In this document: piece after piece, positions 6,530-36,246 of the stretch
Numbering within the stretch: position 1 is the first letter of the stretch
Layout of the letters: each line of letters begins with the position of its first letter
Assembly: GCF_022763525.1 (NCBI RefSeq)
Contig: NZ_JALEGG010000189.1
Span: 1 to 50,628 of the forward strand
Source of the DNA: Acidovorax sp.
Lineage (GTDB): Bacteria; Pseudomonadota; Gammaproteobacteria; Burkholderiales; Burkholderiaceae_C
Direction: 5' to 3'
DNA length: 50,628 nucleotides
Made by a program: the position numbers and the translations under genes
Notes under the pieces: generated by a model
Told to the model about the DNA's origin: nothing
Databases searched by the model: none
Seen by the model: only the letters and a program-made list of their open reading frames with translations

Positions 6530-6750
6530 GTGGGCTCCGGCTGCCGGCAAAGCCGCCCGGGGTGCGGCGGCGGGAGAGCCAGGGATCCTTTGCACGCATC
6601 GAGCGGAAAGTGTGTGCTGCGGATCGGGAGGGCTGCAAGGCGCCAAGCACGGCAATCGCCGCAGCTCTTGCGAGCATTGGCAACGCTGCAGCCGGCCCGA
6701 GTCCGCAGACGCACACGGCGCGGTGATGCATGCAGAGGATCCCCAGGGGA

Positions 6751-33921: not shown

Positions 33922-34524
33922 TCAGACGAATGCATCGGCTTCGGCCTGCAGGCGCGAGCCCTCGGCCAGCACATGGGCCAGCAGCAGCATCATGAGGCCC
34001 ACGACCAGCGTACTGACCTCGAACGAACCCACGCCCAGGGCGATCAACCCGCCGTTCTGCCCGGAGGCCAGCCACGACAGCAGCGCCGTCACGCCCATCT
34101 GGTACAGCAGCGAAGTCACGAACATCGCCAGAAAACCCCAGCCCACGCCCCGGAAGCCCCGCACGACCGCTGAACCGAACACTTCTCCCGCCAGGAAGGC
34201 ACGGCAGATGCGGTGCACGCACAGCACCGTGTAGAACATGGCCGCTGCGGGAATGCACTCCAGCAGCACGCCCACCCAGCGCCACTGCGTCTCCATCGAC
34301 TGGGGCGGCGTGAGCCCCACCAGTTGCGCCTGCGCTGGCACGAGCCCCACGGGCATCCAAGCACCCCAGCCGTCGGCGTGGCCGATGGCGGCCCATCGCG
34401 CCAGCGAAAGGGCCAGCGTACCCAGGGCGCAACCCCAACTGGCCAACAGCAACATCCAGGCGAGGCGCTGGAACGACGGGCTCTGCACGGGCGAGGGCGG
34501 AGCATGGAACGCGTTCTGGGTCAT
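33922..34524 (-). CDS. DUF2975-family membrane protein
   Basis: A 200-residue inner-membrane protein with about four helices (near 23-45, 88-105, 128-150 and 165-185). The end LGVGSFEVSTLVVGLMMLLL followed by AHVLAEGSRLQAEADAFV fits the DUF2975 family, which is coupled to small XRE regulators. Its function is not known. It is the first gene of an operon reading leftward and is divergent from the lipoprotein gene. Confidence 0.75.
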   Translation of the reverse strand: MTQNAFHAPPSPVQSPSFQRLAWMLLLASWGCALGTLALSLARWAAIGHADGWGAWMPVGLVPAQAQLVGLTPPQSMETQWRWVGVLLECIPAAAMFYTVLCVHRICRAFLAGEVFGSAVVRGFRGVGWGFLAMFVTSLLYQMGVTALLSWLASGQNGGLIALGVGSFEVSTLVVGLMMLLLAHVLAEGSRLQAEADAFV

Positions 34525-34547
34525 GAATGGGTCCGCAATAATTTTCT

Positions 34548-34596
34548 GTAAAACAATAATAATATACTGCTTTACGAGAAACTTTTATTGTTTTAC
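34548..34596. promoter_or_regulatory. AT-rich divergent control region with perfect 12-base inverted repeat
   Basis: GTAAAACAATAA (34548-34559) and TTATTGTTTTAC (34585-34596) are perfect inverted repeats separated by 25 bases. A third TTTAC lies between them (34571-34575). The region is very AT-rich against a GC-rich background and contains -10-like TATATT/TATACT sequences on both strands. It sits between the DUF2975-XRE operon and the lipoprotein gene and is a good operator candidate for the XRE protein. Confidence 0.65.
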
Positions 34597-34600
34597 TCCG

Positions 34601-35269
34601 ATGCCAATTTTGCCTGCCACCCCAGGTCACCGGTGCTCCGCCAGCCGTTCCATGCGCTGGCGGGCCACTGGATGGGCCGCTGCGCTGTGCGCCGCACTGC
34701 TCGCCGCATGCGGCAGCATTCCCGTGTCTTCGCTGTGGAAGCTGCGCAATCTCCAGCTCGAAACCCTGGACCCGGCCGCCCTGCGCGCAGCGGTGGTGCA
34801 CAGCCCGGCGCTGCTCGTCCAGGGCCAGTCGCTGATGCTCTCGGTGTCCGTATCACGCAAGGTGCGACGACCGGGCGGCGGCACCACCACCGAGACGCTG
34901 GCGGAAAAACTGCCCCTGCAGGAGTTGCGCACCACCGCCGAACGCAGCGCGCTGGTGGACTACGAGTCCCCCCGGACGGTGGTGCAAGTCTGGCGCATCG
35001 ACCCTGCCGCCCTGCCCCGGCTGCATGCACTGCGCACCACCGCGCTGGGCTGGAAAAAAACGCCAGACGATGCAGGCCAACGTGAATTGAGCCTGGGGCT
35101 GGAACTGGCGGGCTGCGAGAAGCCGGGTCTGCAGCAGCGCACGGTGACCACCCTTCTGCGCTTTGCGGACCCCGGCGAATACATCCCTATCGTGCGCAAC
35201 CTGGACCTGGCGGAGACGATGCCGCCCGAGGAGCTGAAGCAGCGGTTCCCCGCCTGCGCCCCTGGTTGA
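34601..35269 (+). CDS. Putative outer-membrane or periplasmic lipoprotein
   Basis: A 222-residue protein with a lipoprotein signal peptide. The hydrophobic stretch AAALCAALLAACGS ends in a lipobox LAAC, with the cysteine near residue 37 and Gly-Ser after it. The mature domain is mixed and not recognised. The ATG at 34601 lies directly after the palindromic control region; no clear ribosome-binding site is visible, so the transcript may be nearly leaderless. An upstream reading would run through the operator. Confidence 0.7.
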   Translation: MPILPATPGHRCSASRSMRWRATGWAAALCAALLAACGSIPVSSLWKLRNLQLETLDPAALRAAVVHSPALLVQGQSLMLSVSVSRKVRRPGGGTTTETLAEKLPLQELRTTAERSALVDYESPRTVVQVWRIDPAALPRLHALRTTALGWKKTPDDAGQRELSLGLELAGCEKPGLQQRTVTTLLRFADPGEYIPIVRNLDLAETMPPEELKQRFPACAPG

Positions 35270-35321
35270 AGACGCCGCCCGCAGGCACCACCCGCGCGGC
35301 GCCCGGCCAAGGTATCAGCGG

Positions 35322-35472
35322 CTGAGAGTTTTTTGGCCGAGCCCGAAAGGCGCGCGAAAACGCTTCGGATCTAGGCGAAAAGCACCGCCATAGCCCGGGC
35401 TGTGGCTAGCATTTGCTTGCGGCGTCCGGAGTGTTTTGGCGTGCAGGGCGGGTTCGGACAAAAGATTCTCAG
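35322..35472 (+). repeat. 151-bp imperfect palindrome, ERIC-like, with RNA-type G-U pairing
   Basis: The two halves fold back on each other along the whole element. For the outer 49 positions (35322-35370 against 35424-35472) 36 are Watson-Crick and seven are G-U as plus-strand RNA; six are unpaired. The centre is AGCCCGGGCT. It lies between the convergent lipoprotein and ung genes and its right end covers the ung stop codon. Size and shape recall the enterobacterial ERIC elements, but I cannot assign a family. Confidence 0.7.
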
Positions 35473-36185
35473 CCCTGGTGCTGCTCGCGAAACGCGCGCG
35501 CCTTGCCAAAGTGCCCGTTGCCGATGAAGGGCACTGGGGGGCGCAGCGCCGACAGGGGTGAGGGGTGGTTGGATGTGAGCACCAGGTGTCCGCGATCTGA
35601 CGGAATGAAGGCCCGCTTGCTCTGCGCATGCGAGCCCCATAGCATGAACACCACCGGCCGCGGGCCTTCGGCCACGTGGCGGATCACGGCATCGGTGAGC
35701 TGCTCCCAGCCTTTGCCCGCATGGCTGGCCGGCAGACCCTCTTCCACCGTGAGGCAGGTGTTGAGCAACAGCACGCCATTGCGGGCCCACTTCACCAGGC
35801 TTCCGCCGGGCTCGGGGAACGGCGGAAACGGCGTGCCCAGGTCGCGCTGCATTTCCTTGAAGATGTTCTGCAGCGACGGCGGCAGGCGCACGCCCGGCGC
35901 CACCGAGAAGGCCAGCCCCTCGGCCTGGCCCCGGCCGTGGTAAGGGTCCTGGCCCAGGATGACCACGCGCAGCTGATCGGGCGGCGTGAGGCTCAGCGCC
36001 CGCAGCGGCTGCGGGGGGAAGATCACGGCCCCCGCCTGCAGCCGCGCCTGCAGGAACGCGAGCAGGGCCTGCCCCCGTTCACCCGCAAAGAACGCATCGA
36101 TCAACGGCTGCCAGCCGGGCGCCACGGGCCAGTCCGCCGGGTTAGCACTCTGGAGCTGCGTCGCAGCCTGCGAATCTGAATTCAT
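35469..36185 (-). CDS. ung: Uracil-DNA glycosylase
   Basis: Removes uracil from DNA in base excision repair. The 238-residue product has the catalytic water-activating loop GQDPYHGRGQAEGLAFSV and the C-terminal HPSPLS with the catalytic histidine. Other family segments are WARNGVLLLNTCLTVEEG and VVFMLWGSHAQ. The ATG at 36185 is preferred over a TTG six bases upstream. The stop codon lies within the 151-bp palindrome. Confidence 0.95.
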   Translation of the reverse strand: MNSDSQAATQLQSANPADWPVAPGWQPLIDAFFAGERGQALLAFLQARLQAGAVIFPPQPLRALSLTPPDQLRVVILGQDPYHGRGQAEGLAFSVAPGVRLPPSLQNIFKEMQRDLGTPFPPFPEPGGSLVKWARNGVLLLNTCLTVEEGLPASHAGKGWEQLTDAVIRHVAEGPRPVVFMLWGSHAQSKRAFIPSDRGHLVLTSNHPSPLSALRPPVPFIGNGHFGKARAFREQHQG

Positions 36186-36186
36186 G

Positions 36187-36246
36187 GTCAAAACAGGCTC
36201 CAGCGCTTGAACATCAAGCGCAAGAAGCTACATATTTAATAGCAAC
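36187..36246 (-). repeat. AT-rich palindromic repeat, family B, copy 3
   Basis: It has perfect arms GCGCTTGA and TCAAGCGC around a three-base loop, flanked by complementary AGCTTCTT and TGGAGCC and the AT-rich end TTGCTATTAAATATGT. It fills nearly the whole gap between trpC and ung, from five bases before the trpC stop side to the ung start. It may provide a hairpin for termination or mRNA end protection after trpC. Confidence 0.7.

Follow-up and report, generated by a model that had tools for sequence, protein, structure and literature searches.

At the 3′ end of ung, in an Acidovorax sp. contig (NZ_JALEGG010000189.1), a long imperfect palindrome lies at the stop codon of the gene. This raises the question of where the structure came from and whether its folding serves the gene at which it lies. 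The window analysed here is the whole stretch of 50,628 nucleotides. The first-pass annotation, made from the sequence alone, had placed a palindrome of 151 bp at 35322–35472 and had read its pairing bias as a sign of selection on plus-strand RNA. The length was confirmed, while the boundaries had to be corrected to 35318–35468. With these ends the ung stop is still found at the element, where it forms the right TCA flank at 35469–35471. We consider it probable that the palindrome is a non-autonomous MITE of the IS5-family type, which inserted in the ung stop codon with duplication of TCA, and that its folding serves the mobile element and not ung. Direct support for this reading comes from homologues scattered over the genome, from flanks that are repeated on both sides, from an empty site in a syntenic position, and from a nearly fixed size and a common tip. 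Table 1 gives an overview of the features of the locus and of a second hairpin in the window.

Table 1 Features of the ung locus and of the second hairpin (window coordinates)
Feature	Position	Strand	Evidence
Probable mobile hairpin element of class A, 151 bp	35318..35468	+	homologous copies, ends and empty site
Left target-site duplication TCA	35315..35317	+	
Right target-site duplication TCA; read on the minus strand it is TGA, the stop of ung	35469..35471	+	
5′ arm, 69 nt, variable in sequence, pairs with 3′ arm	35318..35386	+	
Apical 8-bp stem with 4-nt loop; the 5′ arm before it measures 69 nt, the prevailing length in the family	35387..35406	+	
Tip motif common to arm types	35365..35429	+	match to covariance model R1, E 1.7e-8
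3′ arm, 62 nt (family usually 70 nt)	35407..35468	+	
ung, stop codon is the target site	35469..36191	-	match in 45/47 genus genomes, own included
Open frame with convergent lipoprotein-like gene on the left side; gene start lies further in	34238..35269	+	
Second hairpin, class K, 160 bp, same tip motif, other arms	6583..6742	+	CCAG on both sides

Mechanical pairing of 35322–35472 reproduced the counts reported earlier for the outer 49 positions, with 36 Watson–Crick pairs, seven G–U and no C–A pairs, and six other combinations. Compared with its own reverse complement, the same interval gave 54 Watson–Crick, 10 G–U, 1 C–A and 8 other pairs. The plus-strand RNA of this interval folds with −92.1 kcal/mol (z −10.0, none of 200 shuffles being as good), the minus-strand RNA with −59.1 kcal/mol (z −3.7). 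Folding as DNA (35319–35468) yielded −40.4 for the plus strand (z −4.3) and −25.1 for the minus strand, which corresponds to the shuffle level (z −0.3). The better-folding strand is antisense to ung, the gene that bears the stop codon. That the structure is a chance palindrome or a one-off inverted duplication is extremely improbable in view of the z of −10, the dispersed family to which it belongs, and the nearly fixed size and common tip of that family.

A total of 153 full-length relatives of the window element was found in the retrieved loci; the window copy itself is outside this set because its right end falls short of the length rule. The pairing and folding counts are based on 151 of the relatives, the rare-change counts on 139 of these 151 and the stop-codon test on 149, the four omitted copies lying too close to a contig end. 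The family usually has 159 bp in a 69-20-70 geometry (5′ arm, apical stem-loop, 3′ arm). This geometry is present exactly in 113 of 126 class A/B copies with intact stem, and the length of class A/B elements is nearly free of indels. The shorter 3′ arm of the window copy (62 instead of the usual 70 nt) means that 8 bp are missing at its right end, and to judge from the sequence this loss probably fell between terminal TCTCAG repeats.

A homologue search with a covariance model, as proposed in the first-pass annotation, was carried out with a model of the tip and detected copies in the own genome, the family and the order. The model matched 26 of 60 genomes at family level, 14 of 150 at order level and 3 of 200 at phylum level (own genome included in each case), and all three positives of the phylum set belong to the order of the window. 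The own genome contains several dispersed homologous copies and 18 tip-model matches at E 1e-4. Among a first set of 40 genomes the element was present in 11 including the own one, all of them from the same genus. A scan of named genomes with the core pattern recovered at least 120 stretches, from Acidovorax, Variovorax, Rhizobacter, Rubrivivax, Ideonella, Massilia, Polaromonas, Thiomonas, Dechloromonas and others. Nine plasmid records were also recovered, eight with about 50–80 bp around the tip and one with an A/B-type element (L254). At one locus of the own genome (L086, C217:11480-12800) a class A copy is split near its position 53, where a second hairpin with the tip has entered at what looks like a CTAG-type site. 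Rfam returned no match at gathering score in the five loci examined; in E-value mode three matches were obtained for window positions 35000–35800, all under their gathering scores. In the open-licence papers searched we found no description of a group of hairpins sharing this tip, and the exact motif strings gave no match in open-licence literature.

The ends of class A/B elements read GAGGCTGAGAG... or GAAGGTGTGAATGAATCC... to the complements, mostly with TCA on both sides. Equal flanks were found in 112 of 149 copies (TCA/TCA 106, TTA/TTA 3, TGA/TGA 2, TCT/TCT 1); 111 of the 149 carry equal TNA, one is equal but TCT, and 37 are unequal. Among 17 relatives with right-hand TTA, the left flank was TTA in three and TCA in nine. 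According to this, old copies have drifted or part of the TCA belongs to the element end. An empty site was identified at one locus, in relative G045, where the same two convergent genes are separated by GGTATCA-ACCCTGG, compared to GGTATCA[element]TCA-GCCCTGG in the window. Furthermore, none of 29 other ung 3′ ends inspected by eye has the element directly after the gene. Thus, the element appears to have been inserted at this place, with the ung stop as the TCA that was repeated.

Insertion at a stop codon is common in the family. A minus-strand coding-frame stop codon forms the right flank of 104 of 149 copies, as judged from gene calls made by a codon-usage script and not from annotation. 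Among the other 45, a stop is located at most 30 nt before the flank in 13 and inside the element in 4, the stop is that of the left gene in 2, and none was present in 26. As a null, we determined the share of stop codons among non-coding CTGA sites (261 of 1036) and CTGAG sites (98 of 294) in the window and the named loci on either strand. This motif null amounts to 25–33%, and the observed excess (P about 6e-20 against 0.33) is two- to threefold over it; the reading preferred here explains it only partly. Those copies that lie off such stops still show TCA/TCA in 25 cases and TGA/TGA in 2, and therefore the orientation seems to be set by the target and not by the gene. The same count bears on a different explanation, according to which the element has a host role at gene ends and its location results from selection after insertion instead of target choice. 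Such selection would account for the number of copies exactly at stops above the motif null. Nevertheless, we regard it as unlikely, because the 45 off-stop copies keep their TCA orientation and because class C copies from a burst are less often at stops (of 37 copies, 11 coincide precisely with the stop of the gene to the right and 2 with that of the gene to the left).

This burst was detected in a 2.7-Mb genome (G087) with 87 tip matches, those retrieved being of class C. A 3.4-Mb genome (G085) has 64 tip matches, of which the retrieved ones belong to class D. For class C 37 of 40 retrieved loci were used, for class D 13 of 20, with 14 in the flank count. An exact 4-bp duplication, mostly YTAR, borders 24 of the 37 class C copies with recognised ends, while class D in G085 has CTAG flanks, 9 of 14 being exact. 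G087 also harbours an IS of 1,171 bp with TTAA on both sides, whose ends GGCAACGCTGAA...TCAGCGTTGCC are the same as those of class C. The frame of its transposase is intact and was assigned to the IS5 family (NF033581 with 338 bits at a cut-off of 140, PF01609). Beyond the ends no convincing similarity between the class C MITE and this IS was seen. The features of a MITE that were seen are the small size, the absence of a transposase gene, paired terminal inverted repeats, the target-site duplications and, at one locus, the empty site.

No IS with class A/B ends was found among those NF033580 loci from 47 genus genomes that were scanned (L354–L382, repeats of at least 11 bp). One of these loci (L364, from G018 of the same genus) has an NF033580 match beside a 13-bp inverted repeat, GTTTACGATCTTC, which is shared with class G; the full class G end is present on one side only. 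A Y1/RAYT mechanism, suggested by the tag-like flanking TCAG, was considered as well and dropped, since the co-varying flanks (TTA, TGA and TCT in the equal pairs listed above) point to a duplication and since the single Y1 transposase match of the own genome (PF01797) has no element copy in its 3.3-kb locus.

To follow pairing across the family, 50 divergent ungapped copies were selected among the 126 that measure exactly 159 nt; without near-identical sequences 71 of the 126 remained, and 70 of them were listed. In the 50 copies the hairpin is kept in 95.1% of cells, and double changes occur in 36 of 63 pairs; none of 500 shuffles reached any of the measures, the 63-pair structure being the fold of the plus-strand consensus, which favours the plus strand. 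Compensatory changes, which had been proposed as a check, are thus present. Mechanical pairing of the outer 46 positions, independent of folding energies, revealed 268 G–U against 17 C–A cells in the same copies. The complete plus-strand mismatch spectrum of the 50 copies comprised GT 268, AG 207, GG 48, AA 18, AC 17, CT 9, TT 5 and CC 2. For class C we counted AG 274, GT 178, AC 105, GG 27 and CT 8, and for class D GT 86, GG 30, AG 18 and AC 17. Of the two strands, the plus strand has the better fold in 150 of 151 class A/B copies, in all 37 of class C and in all 13 of class D. The same holds for the one representative folded from each of E, H, I, J and K (for K, −101.9 on the plus and −96.6 on the minus strand). 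In the class G representative it is the opposite strand that folds better. Among 11 further hairpins, obtained from 26 loci, GU exceeds CA in four (L334, L342, L346, L251), equals it in two (L250, L252) and is below it in five, namely L345 and L352 (a single CA each), L353, L253 and L255; both copies of class G and class H belong to those with fewer GU. The double changes together with the mismatch spectrum suggest that plus-strand folding has been preserved in this lineage.

Rare changes were analysed by counting each low-frequency transition at a Watson–Crick pair once. Pooled, 96 GU-type events stand against 65 CA-type events (P 0.018). The ratio is 15:5 in class C, 6:1 in class D, 15:6 in class B, 25:21 in class A outside the genus, 28:28 in class A within the genus and 7:4 in the rest. 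The control at other positions gave 27:56, in the opposite direction, and is confounded by base make-up and by G–U pairs that can revert. The equal numbers in class A copies of the genus indicate that resident copies seem to decay freely. Resident copies may therefore be released from constraint, while the lineages that still move would preserve the folding of the plus strand.

With respect to the earlier claim of selection on plus-strand RNA, the bias itself recurs in the 50 divergent copies, an RNA structure proper to the ung locus was not borne out, and the bias expected in homologues is not seen in the rare changes of class A copies within the genus, an outcome that the first-pass annotation had named as refuting. 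The bias also extends to all G-containing mismatches, which are the more stable ones in single-stranded DNA too, so that it need not reflect RNA. The conserved covarying structure is present, and it could also be one of DNA. Moreover, DNA-level correction of quasi-palindromes can create double changes. A plus-strand RNA of each copy that acts locally, as stabiliser, terminator or antisense regulator of ung and its neighbour, would fit the highly stable fold, the compensatory changes and the tolerance of G–U pairs. We nevertheless judge it very unlikely. Among the copies, the gene to the left is found on either strand and at different distances, while the one to the right is mostly fixed and antisense. 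No promoter-like site was found, and a single terminator-like match is located at the tip (35391–35408, 0.4 expected). In addition, the lack of bias in the rare changes of genus class A copies and the absence of the element after ung in all 29 relatives inspected speak against a local function.

The mismatch spectrum could also be mimicked by a mutation bias that affects one strand while the element is mobile. In its strict form, with plus-strand cytosines being lost more often while the element moves and no selection on folding, this explanation agrees with the presence of a plus-strand G in 523 of 574 mismatches and with the rare changes of class C (C>N 27, G>N 6). It seems rather unlikely to us that mutation accounts for the whole pattern, since A>G and T>C are also skewed in class C (9:2), genus class A copies show 41 C>N against 48 G>N, and the double changes maintain pairing. 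An orientation-specific purge of strong hairpins adjacent to stop codons was rejected as a further candidate, because pairing is almost flawless on either strand in the outermost 11 pairs and copies off stops retain the same orientation.

The tip links the window element to hairpins of quite different sequence. The core AGGCGCAAAGCRCAGCCATAGC-NNNN-GCTATGGCGAGCATTTGCAACG recurs across elements with seemingly unrelated arms, and about nine arm types were distinguished (A/B, C, D, E, G, H, I, J, K). Pairwise comparison of the 5′ arms gave no score above the best of 50 shuffles, with the exceptions of A–B and, weakly, K–H and I–C. The tip stem starts after 69–71 nt in ten representatives (69 in K), and the size is 156–164 bp in 8 of 10, with 160 bp in class K and 266 bp in class G. 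The latter (L253, on the Comamonas odontotermitis plasmid NZ_CP083452.1) has a normal 5′ arm and tip and extra bases on the 3′ side, and its mismatch bias runs in the reverse direction. Double changes occur in the tip as well, at three pairs: GC (28) is replaced by CG (5), CG (29) by GC (2) or AU (2), and AU (32) by GC (1). The class K element of the window has the ends GGATCCTTTGCACGCATC and 17 matching stretches in its own genome, itself included. It lies between what we take to be a glpD-like gene and a gene for a substrate-binding-like protein.

One may tentatively go further and regard these elements as a superfamily of mobile hairpins, in which the folded plus strand is the functional unit, the tip at 69–71 nt is read by a common factor, and arms are swapped, with length and pairing kept, to exploit whichever IS5-family transposase is available. 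This extended reading is possible, and we hold it to be doubtful as a whole. If it is true, the hairpins would exploit many transposases at the same time as parasites and would pass through a stage as a folded single strand, and to our knowledge no such stage is known for the IS5-type transposase class.

For the preferred reading, an IS5-type MITE in the ung stop, the following course of events is proposed. An IS5-family transposase able to recognise the ends of the element would move it in trans, as suggested by the joint occurrence of the class C IS and MITE in one genome. The element would enter the target TCA, usually followed by G, in a single orientation, so that the strand of the gene reads CTGA. 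Insertion into the stop codon of ung would duplicate the 3-bp TCA and thereby leave the stop intact, while insertions in coding sequence would be lost. One-orientation entry into TCA(G), together with this loss, would explain why stop codons are targeted. The mobile lineage would keep its plus strand foldable as a hairpin of about 60–70 bp with the common tip, which in the duplex appears as an imperfect palindrome. Folding would matter while the plus strand exists as single-stranded DNA or RNA in the life cycle of the element.

A curious palindrome thus leads to a group of mobile elements across many genera of the order of the window. It offers a concrete example of a transposon that sits on stop codons and leaves genes unbroken, as well as a reference for the annotation of these repeats. 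The kind of element is ordinary, a MITE with IS5-type target duplication. Unusual are the single tip with different arms, the nearly fixed geometry and the better preserved folding of one strand in most arm types seen.

Duplication of YTAR marks the IS5 subgroup, and class C has a YTAR-like 4-bp duplication. IS5-family IS and the elements described here differ in that the latter carry no transposase gene, their ends matching those of an IS in class C. Stop codons are likewise preferred by YPAL of Yersinia. In the description of YPAL/RU-2, duplications range from 3 to 26 bp and the inverted repeats are internal, while here duplications are 3 or 4 bp and the repeats terminal. The section on IS1031 in PMC12016507 gives a 3-bp TNA target duplication, so that class A/B shares its duplication type with the IS1031 subgroup of IS5. 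In the same section the repeat of ISLrh starts with GAACCTG, as in variant L210 here. GTAG REPs, according to PMC3733652, are also palindromes at gene ends, and their terminus often supplies the stop codon TAG. They measure 20–40 bp and bear the GTAG tag, whereas the present elements have about 160 bp and a repeated target, and neither GTAG nor CGTC is found at their ends. The elements ERIC, Correia/NEMIS and RUP are, in the passage of PMC2229807 on them, small non-autonomous repeats with long stem-loops and 5′-TA-3′ termini. The likeness to ERIC pointed out in the first-pass annotation therefore holds for size and shape, both groups being small non-autonomous repeats with long stem-loops. It does not extend to the termini, since the elements described here end in GAGG...CCTC next to TCA (G...C by TNA).
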